Source: Asparagopsis taxiformis (Eukaryota > Rhodophyta > Florideophyceae > Bonnemaisoniales > Bonnemaisoniaceae). From it: DNA of 64,000 nt. The stretch lies in contig JALQPE010000143.1 of assembly GCA_030407315.1 (NCBI GenBank), positions 1-64,000 of the forward strand, read 5' to 3'. Numbering within the stretch: position 1 is the first letter of the stretch; each line of letters begins with the position of its first letter. Made by a program: the position numbers and the translations under genes. Below the pieces are notes generated by a model. It was not told where the DNA came from. It did not search any database and saw nothing but the letters and a program-made list of their open reading frames with translations. This document shows positions 14,184 through 39,979 of this stretch, one piece after another.

Positions 14184-14210
14184 TACAATACGACTGGCAG
14201 TCGTATTGTA
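14184..14210. repeat. Palindrome with 1-nt spacer, abutting the previous one
   Basis: TACAATACGACTG, one G, then CAGTCGTATTGTA: a 13-bp perfect stem starting on the base after the previous palindrome. Confidence 0.9.
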
Positions 14211-16645: not shown

Positions 16646-16855
16646 TCGTATTCTGAGCGCTCATGTGCGCTGATCTTTTCGACGCTGTCTACAATTTTAG
16701 ACATCCTTGACAAACATCAAGACTCCTACTTTTACACGCATTATACAATCTGTAAGATAGCTCTCTCAGCTCTACGACCATTCTCATACATGCTGGCAAC
16801 AAGTGTGTTGGATACACTTTTTCACAGAGCAATGAAGCGTGCGGTTACGGAATGA

Positions 16856-18854: not shown

Positions 18855-19060
18855 CCCAGAAATTCTAAAATTTCGGGCCCAAGAAAATTGCAAAAAAACA
18901 TCGATTTGGGAGGTCGAAAGTGCCGTACGGCACACCCCCATCTCAAAAACATGTTCACATGTGCATGTTTTTGAGAATAGCCCAAAAAATAAAGCAATTC
19001 AGGACGTCCGCCGGACATAGGCTTGATTCTAATTTGGCCACAACGGCCCCAGAAGCTACC
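18855..19060 (+). repeat. PAL3 repeat copy C, outer end of right inner arm
   Basis: Palindrome at 18920-18933 and hairpin at 18942-18975. The tail after the hairpin differs from the other copies (AATAAAGCAATTCAGGACG). Confidence 0.9.
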
Positions 19061-19869
19061 AAGCGCCCCGAGCGGCCCCTCCCCGCTCACTTACCCACTC
19101 ACGCCCATCTTGCAGAAACGTTCCTGCTGGCCTCATCCATGCCTTCACATCCACATCATAATCCTCTGCTGAGCTGTTCAGCTTGGACGCTCACTGGAAG
19201 TACTCGTCTTCGACGTCCGCCAATGCAGGACAACACCATGAATACTAAACCCACCGTGGATCTCAGTCATCAACTGTGGGCGTCCTATAAATGACTGCTA
19301 TAGAACCATTGCCCCAAGCCCTCCAGTTTGGACGCTCAGCCAACAGCGATTGCTGCTCTACCTCCTTGGTCGTTCTCCGATGCATGTAAATGCGCCAAAG
19401 TACGACCGATGGGGCAGTCCAAACTTTTTGTACCAGTGCACGCCTAGGGATACCACAAGGTTCGTCATACACACACAAAGACACAAACACACAAAGACAC
19501 AAAGACACAAACACACAAACAACCACGCACTGCAGCACCCAACTTTCGCATGCGTCAGTGATGTGCTGCTGCAGTGTATATGCGCTGTGCGGTAGCAAGA
19601 TTTCCATGCTTGCAGCCATTCACATCCAGACATCCAGCCGCCGACCAGGGAAGCCGTTTGCAGCCGATTCCCCCTTGTCTGCATGGCATCTCGGTGCTGT
19701 CAACACTTGCTTAGTTGCTGCGATGCGAGCAAATGTGCAGCACTAGCCTAACTTGAAATGGACGTCGAGTGGAAGTCCGGCTCGGTTACATTGCTGGTCA
19801 GCCCTGAAATTCTAAAATGTTGGGCTGAGAAATAGCTGCAAAACTGTATCCATGTGCAATACTCGACCA
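19061..19869. repeat. Outer, diverged part of right inverted arm with CA-rich simple repeat
   Basis: Weakly matches 9216-9902 in reverse complement. An (ACACAAAG)-type simple repeat spans about 19465-19525. A truncated PAL3-like head lies at 19695-19850 with TTGAAATGGACGTCG and a mutated second box. No gene. Confidence 0.6.
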
Positions 19870-20095
19870 ACCTGAAATGGACGTCCGGTGAATGTCCAGC
19901 TCAATTGCATTGCTGGCGAGCCCAGAAATTCTAAAATTTCAGTCAGAAAAAAAATGCAAAAATACATCGATTTGGGCGGTCGAAAGTGCCGTACGGCACA
20001 CCCCCATCTCAAAAACATGTTCACATGTGCATGTTTTTGAGAATAGCCCAAATTTCAATTCAAATCAAGGTGTCTAATTTGGCCACAACGGCCCC
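19870..20095 (+). repeat. PAL3 repeat copy D
   Basis: Palindrome 19986-19999; hairpin 20008-20041. It is followed by the family linker GGCCACAACGGCCCCAGG. Confidence 0.9.
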
Positions 20096-20369
20096 AGGAA
20101 CCGGCTGCCGCCCCGACCGGGGTCATCACTGGCTTCGGTAAGCACTAACTGTAAGCCGAAATCGCGTCTTACGAAGGGTCGATTCCAGGCTTCAAGCCCA
20201 AGTTATGCTAGGGAGACATCTTTTTCCCTGTTTCAACATGGTCCCACCTTACATCCTCACGACAAACAACACTCACACATCACGTTACTCATATTCCGTG
20301 CACTTTGTATGAGTAGTGAGCCCGCCTGCTTAGTTGCTGCAATGCATGGATGTGGGCAGCACACGACCA

Positions 20370-20600
20370 ACCTGAAATGGACGTCCGGTGGATGTCCAGC
20401 TCGATTGCACTGCTGGCCAGCCCAAAAATTCTAAAATTTCGGGCAGAAAAAAATTGTGAAAAATCATCGATTTGGGCGGGTCGATTGTGCCGTACGGCAG
20501 ACCCCCATCTCAAAAACATGTTCACATGTGCATGTTTTTGAGAATAGCCCAAATTTCAATTCAAATCAAGGTGTCTAATTTGGCCACAACGGCCCCAGGA
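20370..20600 (+). repeat. PAL3 repeat copy E
   Basis: Palindrome 20487-20500 with one terminal mismatch (GGCAG); hairpin 20509-20542 intact. Copies D and E are joined by about 275 bp of a shared linker, making a short tandem array. Confidence 0.88.
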
Positions 20601-20689
20601 ACCGGCTGCCGCCCCGACCGGGGTCATCACTGGCTTCTGTAAGCACCAACTGTAAGCCAAAATCGCGTCTTACGAAGGGTCGATTTCAG

Positions 20690-22446
20690 GCTCAACACGT
20701 CAGGGACAGGTCTTGGTCCTTGTTTCATCATGGTCCCGCCCTACTCTCTCACGATCAACCTGAAATGGACGTCCGGTGGATGTCGAGCTCGATTGCATTG
20801 CTGGCCAGCCCAGAAATTCTAAAATTTCCGAAAAATCAATTTTGTGGCCCAGCATCTCCTGTGCCGAAAATTCCCGCGCTCACTTTGTTATATACGTCTA
20901 GACGTGTTTCGCACTTGTACGCATCAGGGAAGGCGTCACGGAAGGTTGAGACTACGCTACTTGTGTACCGCGTCGTCTGAAATAGCGAGTAGTGTTTGTT
21001 GTATAGTTGTGGAGTATGCGTCTGGTGGTTTGTAAAGCTTGCAGAACGGGATAGGGATGTGGGTGGCTCCATTTTATGAATACATGAATACAAATATTCA
21101 GGGTTGACGAAGCGGAAAGGCATACGCTCATACATGTATGAGTTTGCATAGTGGAGAAAATATTTACATCGAAATTTACATGGAAGAGATGGAGGTTTTA
21201 AGGATGAGGTATGAGAGGAAGAAAATTCTTCTGTGGTATGAGGATGTGTTCTGTGGGGGGTGGATGGAATCTTGGGATGGGATGGTACAGGGGGAAGTGG
21301 AAATGTACGGAGTGCGGGTTTAGATTGGAGTGTGATTCGGAGAGGAGTGCCGACAAGCATATTATGGGGATTGGGAGACGCTGCGGGGTGTTGGGGTAGT
21401 GAGGGCGGAGGAGGTGTTTAGGTGGGACGTAGGAGGGTGCGGTTGAAGGCCCCGGGAGGAGGGGGTTTTAGGAAAGTGAGGAGAAAGAGGTGGGAAGGGG
21501 GTGGCGTCTGTTCTGGCTGTGGTGAGTGGGGATGTGATGGGAAGAAGAGGGTTATTGTATTTGGGGAGGGAGGAGAGTGGGAGGATGGGTGCGAAGTGGG
21601 GGTTGATATGTGGTTCAGAGCGGGGAGGTTTCTGGGGAGACGGCGGGGGAGCGGGAGCGTGGGCCGGTGGTGGTGGTGGTGGTGTATACGGTATCGAAGA
21701 TGCGGATGGCGTGGGGGCATGGAGCAGCTGAGGGAGGGAGGGGTGGAGCAGGTCGAAGAGTAAGCTGCAGGGGAAGTTTGTGGAGAGGGCGAAGGAGAGG
21801 GGTTGAAGGTAGAGGAGAGAGGGTATTGAAGAACAATACGTTGCAAAGGTGATGGGGGAGAGCATGGTCGAGGGGATAGGGGATGTTTTTCCCTATTCTG
21901 AGGTAGTATGAGGACTGGTTATAAGAAATCTGTACGGTAGAGCAGAAAAGTAGGTATGGAATGGAGGTGTGCACCGTGGAAGCGGGGATAGGTAGCTGAA
22001 AATGCGTTCTAGAGTGGTATTGGGGGTGTTTGAGGTACAGTACGGGGGAGGTGAGCACCAAATGGAAGGGGGTGTGAGCGAGAGGATGAAAAAATTAAAG
22101 ACAAAATTGGAGTCGACCGACAAGGAAAAATAGAGTGGTCGCCGTGATGGATGCGGACATCCATGTCGAGCAAGGCGGCAGAAATTTCTGGGGTCGAAAT
22201 TTTTGAATTTCTGAACCGGCGCCCGTCCTAGGTTGACATAGACATGGCGGAAGTCCATCCCGAGGGGGACATCCGTGGTACTAGAAACAATGAATGTCGC
22301 CCTAGTAATACTAGACGTACTAGACCGCATGGACGTCCGGTTCTAGGCGGACATCCAAAAATACTGGAGAACATGGACGTCCGCCTAGTAATACTAGGTG
22401 TACTAGAGGTTGTGGACGTCCGCATCCATTTCCGAGAACACAGACG
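20690..22446 (+). repeat. Long direct repeat, left copy
   Basis: Nearly the same sequence as 38185-39976. It begins with a truncated PAL3 head (to about 20828), passes a strongly purine-rich plus strand (21200-21850), and ends in clustered GGACGTCC/GGACATCC boxes with CTAGTA motifs (22150-22446). The two copies differ by indels that are not multiples of three (for example inserts near 39140 and 39255 in the right copy), so the open frames inside are not under coding constraint. A short reading KCTECGF...DKHIMG resembles a single zinc finger and is shared by both copies, but its frame context is not. Confidence 0.9.
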
Positions 22447-22501
22447 ATGTTACGGCTAGCCGTTTCTATTAGTTTACACGTAGCAACGTAGCAGCTTACT
22501 C

Positions 22502-23004
22502 TGTAAGGCCCCTGGGCCGCATAAACACCCCACAAGGTCCATTGGACGCCGGACCGGGACCATTGGTCCTGGTCCGGTCCCGGCATTCTCGTTGACCATT
22601 TAAGGTCAACGGATTGACCACTAAGCTACAATAAAGGTAGATCGTCTCGGTTCCAAATCTTTCGACCGTGGTCGTTTAACTTACAACTAAACGGCGGCGG
22701 CAATTCCCTTACCGGATACCCGCTGCTCCGTTTCGATCTCCAATTGGGGATCGCTCGCACATTTCCCCAATTGCCCGCCGCGAGCCTCCTCCGGCGGGGG
22801 TGCACGTGGATTGCCCTAGGGCATTTCGTCTCCACGGTAGTGGAGAACCTTCCCGCTTCTTTTAACGCCGCTAGGCGACCGGGAGGGGCCGTCCGCCCAC
22901 CGGGACAAGGCTGCCGACTGGGAGTGCTGTCGGTTGGCACCCCCAGCCGGTCAACCGAAGCCAACGCCCGCAGGCTTTTCAAACGGTCCCGACCGCTGCC
23001 GTCA
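22502..23004 (+). mobile_element. Candidate LTR followed by a primer-binding-site-like sequence
   Basis: TGGTATCACAGTTGCGG at 23006 begins with the 8 bases typical of a primer-binding site for initiator Met tRNA, and is preceded by ...GTCA and a one-base gap. TG at 22502-22503 could be the start of the LTR. No second copy of this LTR exists in the window, so this is tentative. The segment 22450-23400 is absent from the right direct repeat's flank. A matched A-box-like TAGCTTAGTGG lies on the minus strand at about 22617-22627 without a good B box. Confidence 0.3.
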
Positions 23005-23425
23005 GTGGTATCACAGTTGCGGAATACGTCGTGTGAAAACCACGCGTGGAGGCGACCACAATCCCCGCGGGGATCCATCGCGCTAAGTGCCTAGTTAACC
23101 TTGAGTGGGTTGAGGACGGCCACGGCCGATAGATCCCTCCAGCAGGTTAGATCCAGCCGTCCCGGACTCCGCTCTACCACCCGCTACCGGGTTGGGAGAC
23201 AGGTGTCCGGGCTCCGAGGGATCGATCCACCCGACACAGCCCTCGGGCTACTAGGATCGCACGAGGCGTCAACCTCGTGGAATCGGCGCTCTCACTCGTG
23301 AGTTCGAAGCCTTATCCCTATCCTCTAATCCTCCTCGGAGGTATAATCCATCTACAAGGGCTAAGGTCCTACACCTGCAGTCTCCAAACCTGTTTCAACC
23401 TGTAGAACTCGCTTTCGTTCAGTAT

Positions 23426-23731
23426 ATGACCTGCTTTGCCCCAAAAACCGCTGTGGAAAAATCACTTGGGTGCATTTGTTTAAAGTGGTCCACATGGGAC
23501 CCGGACAACGGATCCGTTGACAGCAATGACACTGCATCCCACAGTGCAGGTGGTCCTTGGTTTGACCTCATTCCTGCATCTACTATATCTGGCACCGTGC
23601 ACATCGTACGAAGTAACTTTCCAGTCAAGCCATTTACGAAACAAATGCACTGGTCGGACCACCGTTTCTATCTCAACCGCTTCTACACCAACACTGATTA
23701 CCAGTTCACAGATGATAATGAAGAAGAATAA
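23426..23731 (+). pseudogene. Fragment resembling the C-terminus of a Plavaka-like transposase
   Basis: An open frame ends DYQFTDDNEEE and holds DLIPASTISGTVHIVRSNF and HWSDHRFYLNRFYTN. The pattern 'LIP...VH.VR...H..Y.LN.F' resembles the last segment of Plavaka/KDZ-type transposases. It has no upstream transposase body here, so it is an orphan fragment. An unrelated small protein cannot be excluded. Confidence 0.35.
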
Positions 23732-23808: not shown

Positions 23809-25350
23809 TCAATCATCCTCCATTACGCCACAACTGTTATCAGCACTGGCTGCATGGCGCCGCTCCATGCCCCCATACTGTGGGGCATTGATTTCGACAT
23901 TCAGGTTTGCACTCAGGTGTCCAGCATATGGGTCAACGACGAAAAGTTCTGCGCCAATTAGTCCTTGCGCAATCACAAAATCCATTACAGCACCGAGGAT
24001 TGACGTAATATGCAATTGAATCCAATCCTCGGACACTAGAACAAGTGATGAGCAACGGTTTACATCATCAACGACATGAACAATTCCAGACCCCTCTCCG
24101 CTTTGCCACACTTCAGCAGCCTCTCTCGTCACAGTACGGCTTGCAAACACATGCCGTGACTGTGCACTAGTCTGCTGTTCGCTCTCGACAACGTCCGTTT
24201 CTTCCCTTGCTTGCGAGCCTTGGAGACAAGACATGCAGTACACCACCATACCAACTAATTGCTGAAAAGCTACCCCCACATATTGACTGTACCTCCTTGT
24301 AAACTCCTTCTGCCGTGCATCTCCTTTCCCCTTCGGTTCATCCAAACACTCCACAGTAGTCACTAGCCAAGCATCCAGGCGCGCCAGCGTTAGTATGCTC
24401 GTCTCTATGTCCATTACTTGTTCTGGTCGTATCGAATACCCCCTGAAGATGTCCAGTACATTCACAGCTACTCGGTTGTTAAACCATACATCACCATTCA
24501 CTTCCATTCCGAAGTTGTCAGGAACCAAGCCTTTGCTGTATCGCAGCTCTGAGAATGGTGCCGTTCGCCACCTCCCCATATCCAAATCACCGTTGCTTTC
24601 CCGTTTCAAAAGCTTCTCAGACGCTTCGCGCTTTTGATCCTCTCGCTCGTCCATCCCAGCTCGCGTCGTCAGCATCGTGCATCTAGACATTAATTTCGTG
24701 TACCCCAGCGAACCGAACAATCTGTCCCTCGCATTACGCTTCCGTGCACTCATCACGTCGGGCAGTTTCTGCGTCACCTTCACTTTCAATTCCTTGCTCC
24801 CCGCCACAGCCTCTTGACAGCACACACGCTGCTCCTCATCGGAAAACACATCACACCACGGACTTTGACGCAGTACGTGTCGCACCAACTCATTCAGCAG
24901 ATCACTCTCGTCTCTGTACGAAGGTGTATACCACTGCAGATTCTTGATAATATAGCCCGGAGGGGTAGCAATATATCCTACACCGTTTTCGCTCCAAAGT
25001 GTCCCTTCTACCGGCTCTACCTCGATGGTACGTCCAGTCCAACGTCTCTGCGTTTGTTCCGCTATAGGGTCCAGCTCCATAGTCTCGTTCTTGCACCACT
25101 TTGTCAGGTTTTCCTCAACCGCCCTAAGAACTCCAAGGTATTTCACAGGAATGGCTTTCTGTATTTTCGACTTACCGCCACCGTGATCACTGATTCTACC
25201 TGTTCTCGCAATTGCAGTAAGGCTGGCATTTTCCGCCTGCAGAGTCTTCACCTTAGCCTCCAACGCAACCATCTCCGTGGTGAGCGCCTTGTTTGCTATG
25301 TCCTGACTAAAAACTTTTTTCCAGCTCCGCGATCTTCTTCTTCTGCGCAT
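23809..25350 (-). CDS. Unknown 513-residue protein, second frame of a coiled-coil pair
   Basis: I recognise no family. The frame begins with a short Arg-rich start (ATG at 25350). From about residue 15 it forms a coiled coil (SQDIANKALTTEMVALEAKV) that continues without interruption the coiled coil ending the upstream frame. The rest looks like a folded alpha-rich protein with Trp and Cys residues (KYLGVLRAVEENLTKWC, WYTPSYRDESDLLNELV, RDRLFGSLGYTKLM). It overlaps the upstream gene (25307-26092) by 44 bp in the plus-1 frame, so the two are probably one product joined by plus-1 frameshifting or were split by an indel in the run GGAAAAAAGTTTTTAG. It is on the same strand as the SET and methyltransferase genes and is separated from them by a PAL3 copy. 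Confidence 0.6.
   Translation of the reverse strand: MRRRRRSRSWKKVFSQDIANKALTTEMVALEAKVKTLQAENASLTAIARTGRISDHGGGKSKIQKAIPVKYLGVLRAVEENLTKWCKNETMELDPIAEQTQRRWTGRTIEVEPVEGTLWSENGVGYIATPPGYIIKNLQWYTPSYRDESDLLNELVRHVLRQSPWCDVFSDEEQRVCCQEAVAGSKELKVKVTQKLPDVMSARKRNARDRLFGSLGYTKLMSRCTMLTTRAGMDEREDQKREASEKLLKRESNGDLDMGRWRTAPFSELRYSKGLVPDNFGMEVNGDVWFNNRVAVNVLDIFRGYSIRPEQVMDIETSILTLARLDAWLVTTVECLDEPKGKGDARQKEFTRRYSQYVGVAFQQLVGMVVYCMSCLQGSQAREETDVVESEQQTSAQSRHVFASRTVTREAAEVWQSGEGSGIVHVVDDVNRCSSLVLVSEDWIQLHITSILGAVMDFVIAQGLIGAELFVVDPYAGHLSANLNVEINAPQYGGMERRHAASADNSCGVMEDD
25307..25320 (-). promoter_or_regulatory. Candidate plus-1 shifty stop
   Basis: In the zero frame the codons are AAA AGT TTT TAG. The T run is five long, so a Phe tRNA on TTT can re-pair one base downstream, after which the frame reads AGT CAG and continues for almost 500 codons. 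The same signature would be left by a one-base indel in the A6 or T5 run. Confidence 0.4.
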
Positions 25351-26092
25351 TGATGCGACTCGCCATTAAATCGATGGATTCCCGCGGATGCAACCTCTCT
25401 GCCCTCACCGTCCCCCCATCTCGCACGCTATCGGGAATATAATGTCCTCCATCGGCAATAGCCTGACGTCGCGGGGGCGTTACGCGCATATTTGGCACCA
25501 ATGACAGTCTGTTGTGACGAGGCCCGCACTCCGGCTGCTCTCTCCCCTCAGTACCACCTGACCGCCGATGATAGTTGGCATCCTGTGAACGTTGCTCAGA
25601 AACAACATCCCTTGCCGCTATCCTCGGGTCCCTGACTGCATTACCTGCTGGGGCTGATGTACTCGGCATAGTTGGCGCAGTGGGGGTCACAGCCTCCAGT
25701 GTCTCGCGAACCCCCGGCTGGGACTCCGTCTGCAGCACCTCCGCATCTGCCAACCCGGGAGGAACTACCTTTGCCATAGCACTCTGCCGCAATTCCAACA
25801 TGTTTTGAGCCACTATCATGTCATCATCATGATGTTCACTGTCCCTGCGAGCACGCTTGCCTCGGTCAAGCCCCATCTCTCTCCGCGCCGTTCCTCCTTC
25901 CTCACTTTCTCGCTGCGGATCCCCAGTTCTGCGCCGTTCCGTCTTGCAACTACCGGACCGTGGTTCAATGCTGCCGGTAGACCCAGACCGCTTCTTCGCG
26001 CGGGATTGTCGGGCACTCGATACAGCAGCTGCTGACCGGTTTTTCTGGAGGCCCGGAGGCTTTGGAGCTTTCTTCGCAATACGCGGCGGCAT
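25307..26092 (-). CDS. Basic, low-complexity protein, first frame of a coiled-coil pair
   Basis: ATG at 26092 (MPPRIAKKAPKPP) is the first methionine of the frame. The 261-residue product is rich in Lys/Arg/Ser/Pro, with basic clusters (AKKRSGS, KRARRDSE) that could be nuclear localisation signals. It has a disordered middle and a C-terminal coiled coil INAQKKKIAELEKSF before TAG at 25307-25309. The frame +1 to it continues the heptad pattern. Architecture (disordered basic N-terminus, coiled coil, folded C-terminus after the shift) recalls Gag-like or nucleic-acid-binding structural proteins. That is only an analogy. Confidence 0.55.
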   Translation of the reverse strand: MPPRIAKKAPKPPGLQKNRSAAAVSSARQSRAKKRSGSTGSIEPRSGSCKTERRRTGDPQRESEEGGTARREMGLDRGKRARRDSEHHDDDMIVAQNMLELRQSAMAKVVPPGLADAEVLQTESQPGVRETLEAVTPTAPTMPSTSAPAGNAVRDPRIAARDVVSEQRSQDANYHRRSGGTEGREQPECGPRHNRLSLVPNMRVTPPRRQAIADGGHYIPDSVRDGGTVRAERLHPRESIDLMASRINAQKKKIAELEKSF

Positions 26093-26319
26093 AATGAAGC
26101 CTTCCCGGAAGCGATGGAAGGATTGAGTTGCACGAGATACAAAAAATTGCTGTATAGTGTCGGTAACCACAACGGTCTGCGATGAACGTTCAGGTCAGGT
26201 CAAGTACCGGAGAATACGCCAACAGTCCAGATTGTATACGGTAGGCAGTCATCAACAGTATTTAATGAGGTACAATTACAGCTGTCGAGCTAGGCCGCGA
26301 GCACCCCTATGTCCGGAAG

Positions 26320-26749: not shown

Positions 26750-27673
26750 CTAATTCCATGCTCTAAACGCTGTCCCATAATGAACGTAGAGCTCCTGCCC
26801 TGGACGGATATCGCGGATTGCACGTACTACGATGATCTTCGGATTTTCTAGGTCCTTCGCCTTGAGCTTCTTCCCCGTCGAACCGCTGCTGTAGTTCTCG
26901 ACAAACTCGACGTTGGCCATCCGCCTGGTGTCTTCCGCCGGAGTGTCCTCACCTCGCAAATACCGCGGGTCGTTGATGAACTGCGCCGAACAGAACGGAG
27001 CCGGAACAATCCAAATTGGATGCTCGATGTTTTCGTCGTCCTCCGCTGTTGCATACAGCTTGATGGCATACATCAAGAATGTTTCCTTCGTTATCGCCAT
27101 GTGACCCTCTCCGTACGCGAACCTCATCGACTCCTTGCTCATATCAGAGTACACAACAGTTCCGTAGTATGCACATACTTCGTCGCCAACATTAAATGTC
27201 TGTTCAGCGAAGAGCCCTCTTCCTGCATTTGGATGCTTAATCAGCGATGGTCGAACGCTCAATTTTTTCGCAACACAATCGTGTGCCCGCATCACGCGAG
27301 GGTTTTCAGTTTGCAACCAGCGGCGCAGGGAAGGTGGCCAATAATGTACCGGTTTTTCCATGTGCTCGTGCGACGCAATCGACTCTGGGCACAGCTGCCA
27401 GAGGTACTGCCGAATATATTTCGGGAACCTCTGGTACAGGGGAAGGCCAGGTGGGGGTTCGATGATCCTGCGTTCCCTCTGTGTACGCATCGTGACAGAG
27501 GGGGACGCCAAGAACTTCTCAGCACTCTGTTTCGCTTCTGTCGTGACCCTCATGTCAGTGTTGTTTGAAAGAATTACACGTGACATGAGAGCACACAGCT
27601 TTGGAAGCGATCGTGCCACACACAATTTGTCCATGTCACTGCCGACGAAAACACGGTGCTCAGGCAAGCTCAT
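26750..27673 (-). CDS. SET-domain protein, downstream frame of a methyltransferase-SET pair
   Basis: 307 codons from ATG at 27673. A SET domain occupies roughly residues 138-302: GRGLFA at 151, AYYG at 168, the FINDP/NVEF equivalents of the 'NHxxxPN' AdoMet-binding stretch at 232-257 (His replaced by Asp), and PGQELYVHYG at 291-300 with the usual terminal Tyr. SET domains transfer methyl groups to protein lysines, usually histones. Residues 2-27 (PEHRVFVGSDMDKLC) are not SET sequence. They look like the strand and acidic turn that follow the AdoMet-binding 'FSGTG' loop in amino-methyltransferases, which the upstream frame lacks. The natural product is therefore probably a single methyltransferase-SET fusion. 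Independent start at the ATGA overlap is the alternative. Confidence 0.8.
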   Translation of the reverse strand: MSLPEHRVFVGSDMDKLCVARSLPKLCALMSRVILSNNTDMRVTTEAKQSAEKFLASPSVTMRTQRERRIIEPPPGLPLYQRFPKYIRQYLWQLCPESIASHEHMEKPVHYWPPSLRRWLQTENPRVMRAHDCVAKKLSVRPSLIKHPNAGRGLFAEQTFNVGDEVCAYYGTVVYSDMSKESMRFAYGEGHMAITKETFLMYAIKLYATAEDDENIEHPIWIVPAPFCSAQFINDPRYLRGEDTPAEDTRRMANVEFVENYSSGSTGKKLKAKDLENPKIIVVRAIRDIRPGQELYVHYGTAFRAWN

Positions 27674-29943
27674 AGCTGCTTTCCCGTTGCAAAAGTGCCA
27701 GAGAATGGATCGACAACAATATCACCAGGCTGTGAATGCTGGCTGATCAACTCCATCATGAGAGCGACGCTCTTCTGCTCTGCACGAACTCTGACCGTAG
27801 CACCGGTTGTGCACCTTGTTCGCCACACCATCTCATTCGAATCGATGGCGGGCATATTGATGGTGACGTTGCACCACGCCGGGTACGTGCCGTCCATGTA
27901 TCCGTGGTTCCTATAGGCCACCATCTCGCTTCCGGTCTTGAACGGAACACCTCGCTTCCAGAAGTGGATAGCGACCTCTGCCATGTTCATGCGTTGGTAC
28001 CTCTTCCGCCCCGGCATTTGATAGAGGTGCCCAGGTAGTCGGACAAACAACAGAGGTACTTCGTCAACGAAGAAAACTGAATTCCGAACGACGTCCTCCT
28101 CCTCCTCCTCCACCTCATCCGCACTTTCTTCGCCACTGTGCTGCGATGCTTCGGAGTCCGAATTCATGGACGTAACCTCTTCTTCATCCGACCCGTCATC
28201 ACTGGCAGCAGCATCGGTTGGGCCTTCTGACTGCGGTCCTTTGTACGTTTCCAAGTAATGGAACCATTCGTAGAACTGCAAAACGGAGCAGAACACGATG
28301 CCGTGGCCACCGGGGCGCAACAGCTCGTCAAACACTTCGATGCTAGCCTGCATATCTTCTGCAGTTAGCCTGTCGTACGAAGAGTTGGAATCGTTCCTCT
28401 TACGACGAACATTGTAGGGCGGATCAGTCAGAATGAGCTGAACGTTGCCCGTGATGGGCACGTGTTCTCGGCTCTCGTCGGCACTGACCAAATCTTCGAA
28501 AGGGACGTCGTACACCCGGCAATACTGACTCATTTTCGAAAGAAAGTCCTTTGCGAGAGCCTGCCCTTCACTTTCCTGCTCTTCTGTCGCATGGGGTGAC
28601 GGTGACGGGGGAGACGGCCCTTGGGCAGTAAGACTGGTCCTCCCAGGTCCAAGTTGAAGCCTGGTTGTGTGTCTTGTCGACGGAACCAAACCTCTCCCTC
28701 CTGTGTTGCGACGAGTGGGAGTGTCATCAACCGGCTTGGGGACCTTTTCTGCGTCCGCGGCTTGTGGTGCCGGGCGGAGGACAGCCATAACGTCTTCGTC
28801 GAGGGTGTCAAAGTACGCTGGCAGCTTGTCCGGATTTCCGCTTGACAAGTATATTTCCAGCGCCCCCCAGCGGTCGGACTCCGGCCAGGTGTACAGGTCC
28901 GGGTTGACGATAAGAAACTGCAACCGGTCGAAGAACTTCCTCACAAGGTCCCTAAATGCACTGTGCTGCGCACTGGTTCTTGTCTCTACTTTTCCACCAT
29001 ATCCATCAGGATGAGATAGGGGAGCTTTGTCGTGGTAGAGATCTAGCTTCTGCTCCATCGGTGCGAATAGACCTTCATCGAGCACGTCAAACCAATGCTC
29101 ACTGCTGTCGAAAATGATGTACGGCGCCATCAACTCTTCGAAGCTGGAAAACTTTGCGGCGAAGGCCACATCGGTCCAAGCATGGTATAAAACTTGAACC
29201 ACGTAACAAGCTCGATTAGTGCTTTCCCGATGGGCTGGGACGCGTGCGGCTTCGTTCCCCTCTTCGGCCGCGTCGCCTATTCGGCGACGCGGCAGGTTCT
29301 TGTTGTGATTTCGGATGATAGACAACGCTTGGAAATACATCAATACCTCGAACGTTTCCGGTGGAGCAAGAACGAAGGCGCTTGGTTCCCCGCGCTGCGG
29401 CGCCTGTAGTGGCGAAGGAAGCATGTTACATCCAATAAGGAAGGTCTGCGGCACGATCCCAGAAAGGATGCAGTGCTCAACCCATTGCCCGATACGCTCA
29501 TCCTGTCTTGAAAACTCGGCAATGGGTAATGCCAGACGAACAATCTGCTTGGCTCGCTCAACGTTCATCTCTGCCATGACGATTTCGGCAACATCCGCCT
29601 CGACTCCAGCATTCTTCGAACGACCGCTGAAGGCCATGCTGAGTCGACCTTGCAGCGCCGCAAATTGTTCTTCCGTGCCCTGCGCAACCCAAGCGCCAAG
29701 GTCCGCGTATGTGAAACCTCCCGGCTTGTCCGTCAAGTCTGCGAAACTTGAGTGGGCGAATAAATCCAGCAAGAGGCGGAGGAAGTCTTTGCCAGCGAGA
29801 GTAGTTTCGCGGGCGGCGCGACCTACGTTTCGACGTGTACCCATGTCACTAGAATCCTCCCAAGGGCTAGCGGGTTCGCGCAGAATTGGCACGGTTGCGT
29901 CGTCAACGATCGGATTGCTGTTGCGCCTGCGCTTATTCGTCAT
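27670..29943 (-). CDS. DNA amino-methyltransferase (N6-adenine or N4-cytosine type)
   Basis: 757 codons from ATG at 29943 (MTNKRRRNSN). The first 450 residues are a helical region of unknown function. A basic, Pro/Ser-rich linker follows (about 400-455). The catalytic motif DPPYN is at residues 507-511, then an acidic insert rich in Asp/Glu/Ser (about 575-625), and the AdoMet-binding loop VVDPFSGTFATG at about 743-754, four codons before the stop. The order 'catalytic motif then AdoMet loop' is that of the beta-like group of amino-methyltransferases. The ORF ends inside the AdoMet fold; the missing strand is encoded at the start of the SET frame. The ATGA overlap and the slippery heptamer just upstream suggest a minus-1 fusion. 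Role: methylation of the exocyclic amine of A or C in DNA. Substrate base cannot be decided from sequence. Confidence 0.82.
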   Translation of the reverse strand: MTNKRRRNSNPIVDDATVPILREPASPWEDSSDMGTRRNVGRAARETTLAGKDFLRLLLDLFAHSSFADLTDKPGGFTYADLGAWVAQGTEEQFAALQGRLSMAFSGRSKNAGVEADVAEIVMAEMNVERAKQIVRLALPIAEFSRQDERIGQWVEHCILSGIVPQTFLIGCNMLPSPLQAPQRGEPSAFVLAPPETFEVLMYFQALSIIRNHNKNLPRRRIGDAAEEGNEAARVPAHRESTNRACYVVQVLYHAWTDVAFAAKFSSFEELMAPYIIFDSSEHWFDVLDEGLFAPMEQKLDLYHDKAPLSHPDGYGGKVETRTSAQHSAFRDLVRKFFDRLQFLIVNPDLYTWPESDRWGALEIYLSSGNPDKLPAYFDTLDEDVMAVLRPAPQAADAEKVPKPVDDTPTRRNTGGRGLVPSTRHTTRLQLGPGRTSLTAQGPSPPSPSPHATEEQESEGQALAKDFLSKMSQYCRVYDVPFEDLVSADESREHVPITGNVQLILTDPPYNVRRKRNDSNSSYDRLTAEDMQASIEVFDELLRPGGHGIVFCSVLQFYEWFHYLETYKGPQSEGPTDAAASDDGSDEEEVTSMNSDSEASQHSGEESADEVEEEEEDVVRNSVFFVDEVPLLFVRLPGHLYQMPGRKRYQRMNMAEVAIHFWKRGVPFKTGSEMVAYRNHGYMDGTYPAWCNVTINMPAIDSNEMVWRTRCTTGATVRVRAEQKSVALMMELISQHSQPGDIVVDPFSGTFATGKQL
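27679..27685 (-). promoter_or_regulatory. Candidate minus-1 slippery heptamer G GGA AAG
   Basis: In the methyltransferase frame the codons are ACG GGA AAG CAG CTA TGA. The heptamer fits X XXY YYZ in the correct phase and lies 6 bases upstream of the TGA at 27670-27672. A minus-1 slip makes the product read ...TGKAAMSLPEHRVFVGSD, which restores the methyltransferase fold and runs into the SET domain. Confidence 0.5.
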
Positions 29944-30274: not shown

Positions 30275-30475
30275 GGACGGCCACTGGACATGGGGATGTC
30301 CAGCTCAGATGCATTGCTGGCCAGACCAGAAATTCTACAATTTCGGGCAGAAAAAATATTGCAAAAAACATCGATTCGGGCGGTCGATTGTGCCGTACGG
30401 CACACCCCCATCTCAAAAACATGTTCACATGTGCATGTTTTTGAGAATAGCCCAAATTTTAATTCAAATCAGGAT
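30275..30475 (+). repeat. PAL3 repeat copy G
   Basis: Palindrome 30390-30403; hairpin 30412-30445. Inverted partner of copy F across the methyltransferase-SET genes. Confidence 0.9.
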
Positions 30476-30739
30476 GCAGATATTCGTCTTCTAGCATTGT
30501 CAGAACACATTCGTATAACCACATTTGGAGAACCTGAGCCCAGAGCTATCGGTTTTGGCGGGAGCTAAGCCATATCTCATATAATCAGTAACTACTTCCC
30601 GCCAGCTGAGTGGTGGAACCCCTGCTATTTCTACCAACGAGACATACGGGGTGTCAACTCGGCAATCGTATATGATTTGGGTGCTAAATTTATTCAAGAG
30701 ACGAATGGGCTTCGAAAAGGAGCCCAACAACGTTTTCTT

Positions 30740-31080
30740 GTGATCCATGGGTATAGGACTATCTATTCTTCTCCAGGCTTCCACCATAGCCTCCTCCACC
30801 ACCTCCGTTAATGGATCGAATATCCGAACCGCACCTCAACATGCTTTTCTTCTCATCCATGGGTACTGACATCTCCGAGATGTGAGTCACATGTTCTGCA
30901 GGCTTCCACCGTAGCCGCCTCCTCCGCCTCCGTTAATGGCAACAATATCCGAACCGGACCTCAACATGTTTTTCTTCTCATCCATGGGTACTGACATCTC
31001 ACATGTTCAACATGTGAGATGTCAGTACCGGAGAAGTTCTCCAGGCTTCCTCCGTAGCCACCTCCTCCACCTCCGTCTGT
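30740..31080 (-). repeat. Degenerate tandem repeat, Gly-rich on the minus strand
   Basis: Three units share TCCATGGGTA, CAGGCTTCC and a GCC(T/G)CCTCC-type block that reads as Gly-Gly-Tyr-Gly-Gly on the minus strand. Frames do not line up across units and stops intervene, so it may be a dead Gly-rich gene. A minus-strand frame at 30802-30500 follows it and is unrecognised. Confidence 0.55.
30987..31029. repeat. Palindrome with 1-nt spacer inside the third unit
   Basis: A perfect 21-bp stem (GGTACTGACATCTCACATGT... and its reverse complement) with a single C at 31008. The neighbouring unit has only one arm-like copy. Confidence 0.9.
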
Positions 31081-31604
31081 GGGAATCAACACAACATCAC
31101 CACTGCGTCTTACCTCACACCCACATCTCTCCGGGATGAAAACGGACGGACGACATAGGGTTTGTAGACGTTTAGAATCTTGTTAGAAAAAAGTAAACGA
31201 AAGAGAACTTCTCTTTCATTGAATGATATCTCGTCCCTGTCGCAATATGTTCCATTTTCAATTTCTCGGGTTGCACACCCATCATGGGGATGAAGGCCTG
31301 GATCGAACCCTCCGAGGGTCTTCGATGGATAGGACAGATAGTGGAAGGCTTTTAAGCCTGTGACCAAGCGGCTATTGATTGGTTGGAGGAAGGAAATTAC
31401 AGAGGAAATATAGCTGAGTACGGTGCTCGCGATAGCTGTTAGGTTAAAGTCAAATATGTTTTTCGATTATTTTTCGTACGGAAATGCCTTGCAAAAGACG
31501 ATGCTTTGTCGTTCTCCTGGAGGGAGTCCGTTGCATTGCACTCAATTCGAGAGCATCGTCATGAAGGAGAGGATTCTTTCTGCTTGTTAGAATCGGTTTA
31601 GAGC
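31081..31604. other. Gene-free stretch
   Basis: No coding region or recognised repeat supported, apart from short open readings without a domain. Confidence 0.3.
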
Positions 31605-31806
31605 AGATAGCTAATGCATTACTGGCCAGCCCAGAAATTGTAGAATTTCGGGCAGCAAAAATATTGTAAAAACCTTGATTTGGGCGGTCGATTGTGCCGT
31701 ACGGCACACCCCCATCTCGAAAACATGTTCACATGTGCATGTTTTTGAGAATAGCCCAAATTTTAATTCAAATCAGGGTGTCTAATTTGGCCACAACGGC
31801 CCCAGG
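31605..31806 (+). repeat. PAL3 repeat copy H
   Basis: Palindrome 31694-31707; hairpin 31716-31749 with one A-to-G change in the left stem. Confidence 0.88.
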
Positions 31807-31964
31807 CACCGGCCGCCGCCCCCGAGTGGGGTCATCACTGGCTTCTGTAAGCACTAACTGTAAGGCTAAATGGCGTCTGACGAAGGGTCAATTTCAGGCT
31901 CAATACGCCAGGGACAGGTCTTGGTCCTTGTTCCATCATGGTCCCACCCACTCTCTCACGACCA

Positions 31965-32195
31965 ACCTGAAATGGACGTCCGGTGGATGTCCAGCTCGAT
32001 TGCACTGCTGGCCAGCCCAGAAATTCTAAAATTTCGGGCACAAAAAAATTGTAAAAAATCAACGATTTGGGCGGGTCGATTGTGCCGTACGGCACACCCC
32101 CATCTCAAAAACATGTTCACATGTGCATGTTTTTGAGAATAGCCCAAATTTTAATTCAAATCAGGGTGTCTAATTTGGCCACAACGGCCCCAGGC
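31965..32195 (+). repeat. PAL3 repeat copy I
   Basis: Palindrome 32082-32095; hairpin 32104-32137. Tandem with H and J through the shared linker. Confidence 0.9.
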
Positions 32196-32454
32196 ACCGG
32201 CCGCCGCCCCGAGTGGGGTCATCACTGGCTTCTGTAAGCACTAACTGTGAGGCTAAATGGCGCCGAAAGATGGGTCGATTCCAGGCTTCAAGCCTAAGTT
32301 ATGCTAGGGAGAAATCTTCTTCCGTGTTTCATAATGGTCCCGCCTTACTCCCTCAACACAAACAATACTCACCCATCACGTTACTCATATTCCGTGCACT
32401 TTATATTAGTAGTGAACCCGCCTGCTTAGTTGCTGCAATGCGTGGATGTAGGCA

Positions 32455-32670
32455 GCACACGACCAACCTGAAATGGACGTCCGGTGGATGTCCAGCTCAG
32501 ATGCACTGCTGGCCAGCCCAGAAATTCTAAAATTTCGGGCACAAAAAATCTTGCAAAAATCAACGATTTGGGCGGGTCGATTGTGCCGTACGGCACACCC
32601 CCATCTCAAAAACATGTTCACATGTGCATGTTTTTGAGAATAGCCCAATTTTAACTCAAATCAGGGTGTT
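32455..32670 (+). repeat. PAL3 repeat copy J, just upstream of the ParB/oxygenase gene
   Basis: Palindrome 32583-32596; hairpin 32605-32638. It ends about 340 bp before the next start codon. Confidence 0.9.
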
Positions 32671-33008
32671 CCCCGGATAAAGGGGTGCTCGCAGCCGCCC
32701 CAAAAGCCGCCTAGCTTGACAGCTGTAATTTTAACACATTACACATCAAGGACACTGCCTGCTTCACGCCACCTCGTCAGGTTTCGAGAGCCCGACTCGG
32801 GCCCGTTCCGAACGGACACTCACATCTCGATTGCCTGTCTTGCATTCCAGCGGTCACGATAGGTGTGTACCTAACAAAATTTCGGTTGTATTGTGTTATT
32901 ATTTCCAGCGATTGGCGTTCACGACAATTCTTCAACGTGAAACATACCATCCACATCACTCGAATACGTCAACGTCAACCATCTCTTTTCCTTTCCAACT
33001 CAACAACC

Positions 33009-36000
33009 ATGGCGGATACGCATTTCAGCAGTTTGTTTTCAACGGTTTGCGGCGATCAAGTGAGCGCGTCAGCGGAGTCGCGCGGACTCAAGCGCGGCGT
33101 CGATGTCGACTTGTTTGCGGACGTGGACGGTGCGGCTGTGCATATTGGGACGGCTTCGGTGAGCACTGCTGGTGGCGATGTTGGCCTTCCGCGCACGCTG
33201 CACAACCACAAGCTGCCGGAAACCGACGAGGCGGACTATATCGTCGTGCGCAACATTGCGACTAAGGACAAGTTCAAGGACCTCCCGTTCCCGTACATGT
33301 TTGATGGCGCCGAGGGACCGCCGGAGACGATGGGTGGAGCATACGCCGCGGCGTTTTACCCTTGGGATACTCGTATGATGCGCCCCGCTGCGGAGGATGG
33401 CCCTAGCGACATTCGTACCCCTGCTGCAGCGTCAAACTTCAACGCAGCGACGAACCAGGCCAGCTCGGGACGGATGCCCAGTACCGGTCCGGCAGGCGAA
33501 ATCACTGGTTCGGGGGGTACGAAGCATCCAGCACGCTCCGTCCCGGTTTCGGGAGGCACGAAGCGCCCTGCTCGCTCTGTCAGAGCCTCCAGTGGAGGCA
33601 CGAAGCACCCTGCTCGCTCTGCTAGAGCCTCCAGTGGAGGCACGAAGCACCCTGCTCGCTCCAACGTCACCGAAGCTACTACGCAGGACGTAACCGAGGT
33701 GGACGACGAACCGGAGGTGGCGGAAAGCATTCGTGAGCAGCAGGGGACGCAAATTACGGTGCCCAAGTTTGTGACGTCGGATTACGTCGGACAAGGAGCG
33801 ACTGTGTTGGTGAGGCAGCTAGTGGAACCGGCCGTGACCCTTCGGGATGTGAAAGAAGACCACGTGGAGGACCTGCGCAACAATATGTTGGCTGTGGGGT
33901 ATGTGAGCTCTTCGCGTATCACTGTGACGGTGCTGAGGTCGCAGAACACGCATCTGTCCGCCGACACGCGTCTGTTCCAGAATGGCAAATTCCATGCCAA
34001 TGCGAACGTGACCGTGATCGACGGACTGCATCGTCTCAATGCTATGCATAGCATTGCGGATGACTTCACGCGCCTCACCCGTATGCACAGAACCAAGCTG
34101 CCACAGGACGCAAACCGCTTGCGCTGGGTTACTCAGCCTCTGGATGTGTACTACCTTCGCCGCAAGGACGACAGTGATCTTCAGCCTCATGAGATCATCC
34201 ACAAGAGTGCAGAGTCGAACCATACGACTGGGACGCAACTGACGGAGCGCTCCCTGGTTCGAATCTTGTCGTCCATCCAGCAGTTCATCCGTACGATTGC
34301 TGTTGCAAATAACGTGGAAAACGCTGGCGACTTGCGTGAGTCTGATGTCATCCGAACATTGTTCGAGGCGCAGTTCATGGGGATGATGAATTCAACGAAC
34401 ACGGCCCGGCGGTGGACGCGTTTGGCTATAGCAACGCTGAAGCATCCTGTTCTCGACGAAGTGTTGCGTGAGCTGAACAATTCCGAGCGCCGCAACGAGA
34501 TTGGGATAACGCACCTGGACCACAAGATAGTGCGCGAGTTGCTGGAAGAAAACTTTGTCTTCGTCTTGCGTGGTCTTTCGGAGTACTTGAACCCTGCTCA
34601 TGGTGGACGTCCGGATGGACGCTTTGACGTGAACGACTTCTATACATACGTCCGTCGCGTGACTGCAATAGCAAATTCTCTGTACGCTGCGTATGGGCGC
34701 CCAAAGAGTATTATGCGCAAGTCATTTCTGAGCACAGAGATGGCAATTGGGTCGGTTAAGCAGCCGAAGGAGTTGCAATGGCATCTCACCAATGCCATTG
34801 CAATGTATAGAGGGGACGACCGGAGCAGTGAAGTTCGAATGCGACGGAGAACCACGCGTTTACAGGATTTGGAAACGAACTTGAAAGAGTTTTTCAATCC
34901 GACATTGAAGAAGAAGACTAAGGCTCGACGCAAACGCCGCCCTTCTGCTGCCAATGTGAGACTCACTCACAAGAAGCAGCGGAATGTCGAACATGAGCCT
35001 GCTTCGCATGGCATCCGCCGCCGTTCACAGCGACTGCGCTCGACGGGAAGCACACGCCTCGAGGAAGAACAGCCGGTTGCGGTACAACAATCCGCCGGGG
35101 AAGAAGAACAGGCCGTTGTGGATAAACCCACCGATCAACAACAAGCCACTGCTTCCGGTGATGAGGTTGACGAAGACTCCGCCCGTTCCCCCAATTCTGC
35201 CGTTGAGATTGTCCCCCAAGATAACCAACGTGCTGGTGCGACTCCCTCCAACCAAGAATCTGTCCATAACGTTTCGGACGAGGAAGAAAACAACAGTGCA
35301 GATGAGGGCCATGTCAAAAGCAAGGGGGTCCGCGAAGTGACAATTACACTCACTGTTCCGGAAGGAGTCGAAGTCGATGAAGACGGTTACATCGTTCGTG
35401 ACTCTCCTTCTGAACACGACCTCCTGTTCGACGACCGTATGCCATCTCTTCCCGACGATTTCGAAGTCAAAGACCGAGCCGAAGGGCATCATCTGGCGCA
35501 GCGTCCCGCGGACGTCATCGCATCGGTGAGGGTTGGCTGTCTGCCCCCGATTGAGCTCAGGTTGTTATTGGAGAGTGTGGAAATCGATGAGGAGGGCAGA
35601 GAGGTGAGGTATTTGAAGCAAGTGGCGATGGACCCTGTGTTTGAGGGGCTGCATATTCCGGAACAACATCGGGCTCGTCATCTTGTTTTCGAGATCGACA
35701 CCATCTATCCGATGTTTTTCGCAGCGTGGAAGATGGCTGCCAAGGCGATGTGTGAGCCTACATCGACGTTTCTACCCTCGAGGCTGGACTTCGCTCAGGT
35801 TGCGCGAATGTCTACAAGCTGGAAGGATTCGTATGAGGCCGGCACTGGTATGGCGTACTTCCACAATTGCCGAACGGAAATCAACGAGCGAGGGTATACG
35901 GTGATGCACAATTTCGCGGATGTAAGCTACCTCGATGCGTCGGACAAGTTCCCATTTGACTTGGGTCTCATGGAAGAAATTCCTAACCAGGAATTGTTTC

Positions 36001-37007
36001 GGTACTTCTTGGGAACATGGGAGGGTGAGGAGGTGCACAAGGACCCTGGGAACCGGCAGCTGTGGAGTCCCATTGTCAATACTGGGGACGATGAAACAGA
36101 TGAGAAGAACCGGAATGAGGGGAGGGCTCGCTTCACGTCTACGCGCCACTGCCTGGTTGACTATGCCGAGAACGATGAGACGCATATCGACCGGTTCAAG
36201 TTTGTGACGCGGCGAGCCCTGCTGGATGTGTGGTTGGGAATCCTTGTCCGGCTGATAGGGCTGGAGGAGTGCGGTTTACCGGGAGAAAAACTTGTCATGC
36301 CGGCATCTGGGGGACGGTTTTTGATAACGGGAAAGGGGTGTCCTCGGCAGGTCCCACACAATGATTTCCCTGTTCCTCCTCGCGACCGCAAAGATCAACT
36401 TCCGGGTTACTTTGTTATTGCCAACGGAGATGACCCATTCCCTATCTGGGTGTGTCCAGGGTCCCACAAGTACGTCTTTTCCAAAGCGCTGGAATTAGAT
36501 ATGTACGCCAAGACGATGAAGCTGAAGAAGGTAATCGTTCCGCCACGTTCAGTCTTCATCGGTCACGGCCATGTACAACATGCCGGGGCAGGGCATGTCG
36601 ACAGAGTTGTGTCACACACGACAACGAGGTATCACACGTATTTCAGGAATGCGTCGTATCCGATTCCCGACAATGTTTCGTTTGGTTTCATCAGGCGGTT
36701 GGGATTCGAAGAAGAAGTAATCGCCAATGCTCCGCGCCGGTCTGCCAGGCAAAGTCAACCGGCACCTGTCAATGTTCGCCACAAGACAGTTGTTCCCATC
36801 CCGGTCAAGAAAGATCGTAGGCCGAAGACAGGGCAGCTCGGAATCATGCGGATGAAGACGACAGAAGCTCCCAAGAAGAGAACCCTCACACCGGGTGAAG
36901 AATTCATCTTGAGCTATTCAACTCCACGGTTGCCGATAACGCCTATTCTGCCGGGAGATCCTGAATATGATGAGGACGAAGACGAAGAACAATTTTCCGA
37001 CGGCTAG
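33009..37007 (+). CDS. Large protein with a ParB-like motif and a C-terminal 2OG-Fe(II)-oxygenase-like domain
   Basis: ATG at 33009 sits in a strong context (AACAACCATGG); the frame is open upstream but lacks another good start. 1332 residues, intronless. Residues about 165-225 hold four copies of GGTKxPARS. Around 336-342, VIDGLHR within a region of beta strands and basic helices resembles the ParB/Srx nucleotide-binding core ('GxxR'). Residues about 600-860 are Lys/Arg-rich and then Glu/Asp-rich disordered linker. The C-terminal region has H1117-N-D1119, then HGHVQHAGAGH (1186-1195) and R1207: an HxD...H...R arrangement typical of 2-oxoglutarate/Fe(II) dioxygenases. Such enzymes oxidise methylated bases, lysines or small molecules. 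Next to a methyltransferase-SET gene, a demethylase/modifier role is tempting but is inference. Codon use looks intact, with no internal lesion. Confidence 0.7.
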   Translation: MADTHFSSLFSTVCGDQVSASAESRGLKRGVDVDLFADVDGAAVHIGTASVSTAGGDVGLPRTLHNHKLPETDEADYIVVRNIATKDKFKDLPFPYMFDGAEGPPETMGGAYAAAFYPWDTRMMRPAAEDGPSDIRTPAAASNFNAATNQASSGRMPSTGPAGEITGSGGTKHPARSVPVSGGTKRPARSVRASSGGTKHPARSARASSGGTKHPARSNVTEATTQDVTEVDDEPEVAESIREQQGTQITVPKFVTSDYVGQGATVLVRQLVEPAVTLRDVKEDHVEDLRNNMLAVGYVSSSRITVTVLRSQNTHLSADTRLFQNGKFHANANVTVIDGLHRLNAMHSIADDFTRLTRMHRTKLPQDANRLRWVTQPLDVYYLRRKDDSDLQPHEIIHKSAESNHTTGTQLTERSLVRILSSIQQFIRTIAVANNVENAGDLRESDVIRTLFEAQFMGMMNSTNTARRWTRLAIATLKHPVLDEVLRELNNSERRNEIGITHLDHKIVRELLEENFVFVLRGLSEYLNPAHGGRPDGRFDVNDFYTYVRRVTAIANSLYAAYGRPKSIMRKSFLSTEMAIGSVKQPKELQWHLTNAIAMYRGDDRSSEVRMRRRTTRLQDLETNLKEFFNPTLKKKTKARRKRRPSAANVRLTHKKQRNVEHEPASHGIRRRSQRLRSTGSTRLEEEQPVAVQQSAGEEEQAVVDKPTDQQQATASGDEVDEDSARSPNSAVEIVPQDNQRAGATPSNQESVHNVSDEEENNSADEGHVKSKGVREVTITLTVPEGVEVDEDGYIVRDSPSEHDLLFDDRMPSLPDDFEVKDRAEGHHLAQRPADVIASVRVGCLPPIELRLLLESVEIDEEGREVRYLKQVAMDPVFEGLHIPEQHRARHLVFEIDTIYPMFFAAWKMAAKAMCEPTSTFLPSRLDFAQVARMSTSWKDSYEAGTGMAYFHNCRTEINERGYTVMHNFADVSYLDASDKFPFDLGLMEEIPNQELFRYFLGTWEGEEVHKDPGNRQLWSPIVNTGDDETDEKNRNEGRARFTSTRHCLVDYAENDETHIDRFKFVTRRALLDVWLGILVRLIGLEECGLPGEKLVMPASGGRFLITGKGCPRQVPHNDFPVPPRDRKDQLPGYFVIANGDDPFPIWVCPGSHKYVFSKALELDMYAKTMKLKKVIVPPRSVFIGHGHVQHAGAGHVDRVVSHTTTRYHTYFRNASYPIPDNVSFGFIRRLGFEEEVIANAPRRSARQSQPAPVNVRHKTVVPIPVKKDRRPKTGQLGIMRMKTTEAPKKRTLTPGEEFILSYSTPRLPITPILPGDPEYDEDEDEEQFSDG

Positions 37008-37274
37008 ATAGCTTAACAACTACTATTTGGTAAACAATTATCGAGAATATAATCATCTCCTTTATCACTTTCAATCTATGAACCTAGTATAATGTACTTC
37101 CGTTCCATGCTTTCAAACTAGATTGTCCATTCCCTCGTGGGTTGGAGCATGATTTCCAGGACGATTCCCTCACATCTCTAGACTCGATGGTCTATGGTAG
37201 AAATAGCAGAACAATTGGGTTTGTACGTGCTTCATCGCCTACTTGCTTCCGGTAATGTGTGGACGTGCACGATA

Positions 37275-37512
37275 CACGATCAACCTGAAATGGACGTCCG
37301 GTGGATGTCCAGCTCAGATGCATTGCTGGCCAGCCCAGAAATTCTACAATTTCGGGCACAAAAAAATATTGCAAAAAATCATCGATTTGGGCGGGTCGAT
37401 TGTGCCGTACGGCACACCCCCATCTCAAAAACATGTTCACATGTGCATGTTTTTGAGAATAGCCCAAAATTTAATTCTAATCAAGGTGTCTAATTTGGCC
37501 ACAACGGCCCCA
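37275..37512 (+). repeat. PAL3 repeat copy K
   Basis: Palindrome 37402-37415; hairpin 37424-37457. It lies about 270 bp after the ParB/oxygenase stop codon. Confidence 0.9.
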
Positions 37513-37784
37513 GGCACCGGCCGCCGCCCCGAGTGGGGTTGTCACTGGCTTCTGTAAGCACCAACTGTAAGCCAAAATCGCGTCTTACGAGGGTTCGATT
37601 CCAGGCTTTAAGCCTAAGTTATGCTAGGGTGACATCTTTTTCCTTGTTTCATCATGGTCCCGCCTTACTCCCTCAACACAAACAATACTCACCCATCACG
37701 TTACTCATATTCCGTGCACTTTGTATTAGTAGTGAACCCGCCTGCTTAGTTTGTGCAATGCGTCGATGTAGGCAGCACACGACT

Positions 37785-38017
37785 AACCTGAAATGGACGT
37801 CTGGCGGATGTCCAGCTCAGATGCATTGCTGGCCAGCCCAGAAATTCTACAATTTCGGGCACAAAAAAATTGCAAAAAATCATCGATTTGGGCGGGTCGA
37901 TTGTGCCGTACGGCACACCCCCATCTCAAAAACATGTTCACATGTGCATGTTTTTGAGAATAGCCCAAATTTTAATTCAAATCAGGGTGTCTAATTTGGC
38001 CACAACGGCCCCAGGAA
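37785..38017 (+). repeat. PAL3 repeat copy L
   Basis: Palindrome 37903-37916; hairpin 37925-37958. The linker between K and L contains GGGTTCGATTCCAGG (37587-37601), matching a pol III B box. Confidence 0.9.
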
Positions 38018-38140
38018 CCGGAGCCGCCGCCCCGATCGGGGGCTATCACTGGCGTCTGTAAGCACCAACTGTAAGCCGGAACCGGCCGCCGCCCCGATCG
38101 GGGCTATCACTGGCTTCTATAAGCACCAACTGTAAGCCAA

Positions 38141-39976: not shown

Positions 39977-39979
39977 CTT

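Follow-up and report, generated by a model that had tools for sequence, protein, structure and literature searches.

A Plavaka-type DNA transposon of the red alga Asparagopsis taxiformis carries a predicted DNA methyltransferase-SET fusion gene

Transposons that carry single chromatin or DNA-modification enzymes are already known. Fungal DNA transposons, including Plavaka, carry a TET/JBP dioxygenase, and the HarbingerS and MuDR transposons of Phytophthora carry a SET histone methyltransferase (PMC12730594). Among retrotransposons, DIRS elements with Dam-like N6-adenine methylases and dinoflagellate and charophyte elements with DNMT have been described (PMC5890265). The cargo of the Plavaka giant repeats of Amoebidium includes many tyrosine recombinases (PMC11244446). 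In bdelloid rotifers, N4CMT has a chromodomain and an SPPY motif, and a loop between DNA and histone marks has been proposed (PMC8885841). In the present study, we analyzed a stretch of 64,000 nucleotides (hereafter, the window) from Asparagopsis taxiformis (assembly GCA_030407315.1, contig JALQPE010000143.1, positions 1 to 64,000). It contains a large repeated element with a Plavaka-type transposase, in which a predicted DNA amino-methyltransferase is fused to a SET domain. The genome itself has 13 matches to the phycobilisome linker domain PF00427, all exceeding the curated cut-off and spread over ten contigs, which suggest a red algal host; of 14 control genomes, only that of Synechococcus gave matches.

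The element resembles the fungal TET/JBP Plavaka transposons in combining a Plavaka-type transposase with a cargo enzyme predicted to act on DNA modification. It differs from them in its red algal host and in its cargo, an amino-methyltransferase-SET fusion and a ParB/dioxygenase-like protein without a Pfam TET/JBP match, and its termini differ from those of PlavakaA and PlavakaB (PMC12730594). HarbingerS and MuDR similarly bear a SET domain on a DNA transposon; however, they belong to other transposon lineages, and a fused DNA methyltransferase is unmentioned in the portion available (PMC12730594). The DIRS and DNMT elements also place a DNA methyltransferase on a mobile element, but are retrotransposons, and the text contains no instance of the term "SET domain" (PMC5890265). 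The Amoebidium repeats are likewise large, intron-poor, multigene, and tied to a Plavaka transposase, whereas their reported cargo includes many tyrosine recombinases, and "SET domain" again does not occur in the text (PMC11244446). The chromodomain of N4CMT would read histone marks, whereas the SET domain of the fusion would write them; furthermore, N4CMT has SPPY, while the fusion has DPPY and is transposon-borne (PMC8885841). We found no report of a transposon-borne methyltransferase-SET fusion in the open-access literature searched, and the joined enzyme itself is unusual.

The fusion gene and the site at which its frame is broken are as follows:

26750-29943, minus strand: DNA methyltransferase-SET fusion gene; a single frame of 1064 amino acids in an intact sibling copy, broken at the junction in the window copy
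27679-27685, minus strand: heptamer GGGAAAG and short homopolymer, one base off in length relative to nearly all other copies

In the window, both open reading frames (ORFs) are on the minus strand. The methyltransferase ORF (29943-27670, 757 amino acids) contains N6_N4_Mtase at 47.3 bits (Pfam cut-off, 26.7), and the SET ORF (27673-26750, 307 amino acids) contains SET at 32.8 bits (cut-off, 22.4). An earlier note on this DNA described a methyltransferase frame ending just past its S-adenosylmethionine (AdoMet) loop, with the next strand of the fold in the -1 frame at the start of the SET ORF. The ORF coordinates agree with the first point, and the -1-frame continuation is genuinely homologous and completes the AdoMet-binding fold. 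The heptamer was also correctly placed: GGGAAAG at 27685-27679 is in the phase G GGA AAG, and the stop follows six bases on. The note suggested that a slip at this site joins the two parts into one protein.

Sibling copies were surveyed by a protein search of the 141.5-Mb genome, in which the window lies on contig C143. Only the best 59 of 3623 first-look methyltransferase candidates, the window's own included, were scored; therefore, this survey favors intact copies. Within it, all 58 other copies matched residues 1-755 without a stop. Frames of 1079-1100 codons, enough for the entire fusion, were present in 56 of these copies, and the remaining two had frames of 899 codons, in which the junction was not read. 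Among the 129 best-scored SET matches listed, the open frame of the window was the shortest (323 codons; the next was 332). The junction was read in seven sibling loci, and in all of them the short homopolymer deviated by one base from that in the window. The least biased evidence on the frame break comes from counting exact patterns genome-wide, which leaves out copies with other changes nearby. The intact junction form was found 891 times and the window form six times, the window included. A longer homopolymer in the neighboring coiled-coil gene is far more variable than the junction (366 and 502 exact matches in its two length classes), which indicates that length changes in homopolymers are common in this assembly. 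As judged from these classes, its variation is as expected of homopolymer indels.

Since the intact form outnumbers the window form by 891 to 6, we concluded from the comparison of copies that the frame break is a rare one-base length variant of a short homopolymer, caused by mutation or assembly error. The earlier note had named a simple indel as the dull alternative, and for the frame break, this one-base difference from the siblings bears it out. Programmed -1 frameshifting at G GGA AAG, with the methyltransferase alone as the normal product, would account for a heptamer in phase six bases ahead of the stop and for a fold that goes on in the other frame. However, the junction is in frame in 891 of the 897 exact matches and in each of the 40 rows of the family alignment described below, and the longer homopolymer of the neighboring gene is more variable in length; this mechanism is almost certainly not the source of the fusion. 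The heptamer counts for little because in-phase XXXYYYZ motifs (Y = A or T) are not rare in this gene, with two per 757 codons in the window and two in the intact sibling ORF at the same two places, one of which is the junction spot, already in frame there. The two-frame arrangement that needs a slip is not conserved in relatives, whose proteins are uninterrupted, and frameshifting was rejected as a general mode of expression. What the note proposed stands in part: one polypeptide with both domains, in a nuclear mobile element, without the programmed slip.

In the intact sibling, the fusion comprises 1064 residues in a single frame, with N6_N4_Mtase at 501-773 and SET at 908-1057 (29.5 bits against a Pfam cut-off of 22.4). 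Every one of the 15 sibling copies that were read had an intact ORF of 1063-1067 residues (two copies were entered twice, giving 17 entries; all were taken from the best hits). The methyltransferase part has an N6_N4_Mtase domain, DPPY ahead of the AdoMet motif, and a fold matching the beta class; a fold comparison matched the SET part to SUV420H1 and MLL1. The fusion enzyme is, by prediction, a beta-class DNA amino-methyltransferase that is CcrM-like. A DPPY motif indicates adenine as the methylated base, and the target of the predicted enzyme is probably N6-adenine.

A search with residues 470-1064 against 5.8 billion proteins, in which the 7975 candidates sharing the most words were scored, returned 59 homologous proteins. 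One, P0002, was 99% identical, and the others were 24-37% identical. The methyltransferase domain was present in all 59, and a precomputed SET domain was also present in 23. We aligned the query with 39 of these homologues (40 rows); the 20 excluded were for the most part more distant or of different length. In this alignment, the methyltransferase was detected in 40 of 40 rows and SET in 34 (Pfam, E 0.01), DPP[YF] was retained in 37, and the junction was continuous in all 40. Since the domains are shared and the junction is continuous across homologues, the fusion is, on sequence grounds, an established protein family and no accident of the window copy. The SET domain may instead be a decaying passenger, with only the DNA methyltransferase mattering; it is undetected in six rows, and several of its motifs are lost in P0034, P0039, P0040, P0041, P0044, and P0050. 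However, AGxGxFA, YYGT, and YG are mostly retained in the remaining rows at approximately 30% identity. Furthermore, the 13 distinct intact ORFs of the genome differ by six silent and four amino-acid changes, a ratio of nonsynonymous to synonymous polymorphism (pN/pS) of 0.19, which comes from few events and from copies taken among the best hits. We regard a passenger SET domain as very unlikely.

The fusion gene is located within a large repeat, as revealed by a DNA comparison of the window with ten other copies (twenty stretches of up to 10 kb). The features of this element are as follows:

4800-39976: whole element with a Plavaka-type transposase; both edges sharp relative to other copies
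4800-4833, plus strand: left terminal inverted repeat of approximately 34 bp, CGTCTGTGTTTTCGGAAGTGGACGCGGACGTCCA; in the window and five of nine other copies
39943-39976, minus strand: right terminal inverted repeat; three mismatches in 34 relative to the left end
4924-5189: subterminal tandem repeat with 6.2 units of 43 bp; a pairwise alignment shows related units close to the right end
7501-8874, plus strand: truncated and damaged 5' portion of the Plavaka transposase gene; PF18759 at 57.2 bits (cut-off, 26.3)
23370-23731, plus strand: leftover 3' end of the transposase gene (approximately residues 892-1012); end coordinate by offset
23809-26170, minus strand: coiled-coil protein gene; two overlapping frames in the window
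32865-37007, plus strand: gene for a 1380-amino-acid protein with DGxHR (ParB/DndB-like) and HxD...H...R (2-oxoglutarate dioxygenase-like) motifs

Thirty-nine other copies were scored at each edge. At the left edge, 24 start at query positions 798-800 (window 4798-4800) and one at 790, seven have a second piece starting at 792-800, seven start further in, and none starts further out. At the right edge, all 39 end at query positions 1476-1483 (window 39975-39982). Among nine copies with guessed left-end stretches, the left terminal repeat was present in C2140, C1850, C430, C1665, and C2232 and was not found in the guessed stretches of C284, C613, C348, and C599. The right terminal repeat was present in the window, in four of ten joined copies (C613, C284, C2140, and C1850), and in C599 and C1665; other stretches may end short. 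Membership in the fungal PlavakaA/PlavakaB subgroup was rejected, the termini being CGTCTGTG..CACAGACG and not TGT..ACA or CATCA..TGATG. In siblings, the transposase is full length (1012 amino acids, as in the ORF of C2140) and lies in the left part of the element, and 46 of 48 homologues carry the Plavaka domain PF18759. The 43-bp repeats are likely to be putative transposase-binding sites. Taken together, the sequences indicate that the element is a large DNA transposon with a Plavaka-type transposase, present in several hundred copies in the genome. In ten siblings, which were picked for an intact methyltransferase-SET gene and in some of which the stretch stops before the end of the ParB/dioxygenase gene, a full-length single frame was found for the transposase in seven, methyltransferase-SET in ten, the coiled-coil protein in one, and the ParB/dioxygenase protein in one (plus the window). 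Compared with these siblings, the window copy is one that has lost its reading frame by a one-base homopolymer change and carries other lesions.

Of the two motifs, DGxHR is usual in proteins of the ParB and DndB types, and HxD...H...R characterizes 2-oxoglutarate Fe(II) dioxygenases. When residues 980-1330 of the 1380-amino-acid protein were used as the query, eight relatives at 34-38% identity were obtained, and D386, G387, H389, R390, H1165, D1167, H1239, and R1255 are invariant in all nine rows. The window protein itself had no Pfam match. DndB (PF14072) was weakly matched in three of the nine family members (best E, 0.016) and not in the window protein, and no Pfam dioxygenase, TET/JBP included, was matched in the family. 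A relative with 30% identity over residues 275-1275 was observed in L059 (WTKN01000141.1, 3428 bases), from a metagenome-assembled genome labelled Moorena, a cyanobacterium; this is perhaps a eukaryotic contaminant or a real bacterial copy.

We consider it likely that the element, with its predicted fused methyltransferase-SET enzyme beside a ParB/dioxygenase-like gene, marks its own DNA and histones and controls its own chromatin. Predicting targeting, activity, marks, and effect from the anatomy observed, we speculate that the fused enzyme would be guided to element DNA, perhaps via its helical N-terminal region, and would put a DNA mark on it and a histone mark on the adjoining nucleosomes, so that both chromatin layers are set jointly. 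The ParB/dioxygenase protein may read DNA and remove or alter a mark. The net effect would be an element that governs its own chromatin and evades or modulates silencing by the host. A full epigenetic kit of the element's own, in which DNA and histone marks are jointly written, the partner reads DNA and oxidizes a mark away, and the chromatin state is copied to each new insertion, is possible but doubtful.

Several observations weigh against this chromatin role. SET was not detected in six of the 40 alignment rows, DPPY is altered in three, and the SET domain of the fusion reads ND where the usual motif reads NH. The fold model of the 1380-amino-acid protein was poor (predicted local distance difference test, 53.9), and fold searches with it were empty; therefore, the dioxygenase assignment is a motif-level reading based on motif spacing. 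In most of the siblings that were read, one or more genes are broken. The flanks at which a target-site duplication would lie agree in C2140 (TA/TA) but not clearly in C1850 (TT/TC), C1665 (TT/TG), or the window (AT/CT). Such duplications are 2-3 bp in the fungal transposons (PMC12730594), and a CG duplication hidden within the element ends is possible. Gene linkage in remote relatives was inferred from equal contig sizes: P0026 (methyltransferase-SET) and P0063 (ParB/dioxygenase) each come from a single 15,726-base metagenome contig, and P0035 (methyltransferase-SET) and P0096 (Plavaka transposase) each come from a single 14,025-base metagenome contig (ENA). With jittered lengths, the two pairs of lists had chance-coincidence probabilities of approximately 0.03 (first) and 0.24 (second) when any size was allowed, and of 0.002 and 0.018 when only sizes above 10 kb were considered, a limit set after the matches were seen. 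Because of the difference between 0.03 and 0.24, we regard the link to the ParB/dioxygenase gene as fairly good and that to the transposase as suggestive.

Other roles for the fusion need to be considered. Dam methylation and Tn10 provide a precedent in which the methylation state gates the transposition of a newly replicated element. The methyltransferase may similarly time transposition, rather than act on chromatin, by marking newly replicated ends and gating the transposase. The enzyme is predicted to be of the bacterial N6-adenine type, and the transposase and repeated subterminal sites are in the same element; however, this leaves unexplained why the polypeptide also retains a SET domain (34 of 40 rows), and we consider it unlikely. 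Another possibility, by analogy with the loop proposed for bdelloid N4CMT, is that the fusion, instead of shielding its element from silencing, acts as a repressor of that element and so limits damage to the host. Strict self-restraint does not fit the hundreds of copies reached, and self-silencing appears rather unlikely.

The coiled-coil gene is a single frame of 627 amino acids in C2140. Its two frames in the window are at 25307-26170 and 23809-25350 on the minus strand, and the homopolymer length differs among copies. In the 366-copy class, A AAA AAG is in phase and the -1 frame is then open for up to approximately 500 codons, whereas the 502-copy class is plainly in frame. At 8930-23370, the window has a rearrangement that is absent from the ten siblings compared and separates the two ends of the transposase gene; in the siblings, approximately 1.27 kb follows the position matching window 8930, and then the position matching 23370. 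The rearranged part contains a large perfect palindrome, a 100% inverted repeat with arms at 11187-13509/15422-17744 and 10197-11142/17792-18737, including two identical inverted ORFs of 220 amino acids (12615-13277 and 15654-16316). This palindrome may represent a recent inverted duplication or a fold-back of the assembly. Members of a dispersed repeat family, a few hundred bases long and in both orientations, were observed at 30350-32560, 19850-20830, 37240-38080, and 8930-9264, between element genes and inside the rearranged part; the family is possibly regulatory or a small nested element. Outside the element, the inverted ORFs at 49351-51129 (plus strand) and 53444-54706 (minus strand) are alike by eye and seem to encode a membrane protein. 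No Pfam match was obtained for the former or for the 802-amino-acid ORF at 42399-44807 (minus strand), also outside the element.

The present study describes a predicted dual writer that is in a single frame across remote relatives and has been amplified to hundreds of copies. If the chromatin role is true, the fusion would be a natural single-chain enzyme linking the methylation of DNA to that of histones and a source of non-5-methylcytosine DNA methylation in a eukaryote. Whether a mobile element determines its own chromatin state would also become open to a direct test.

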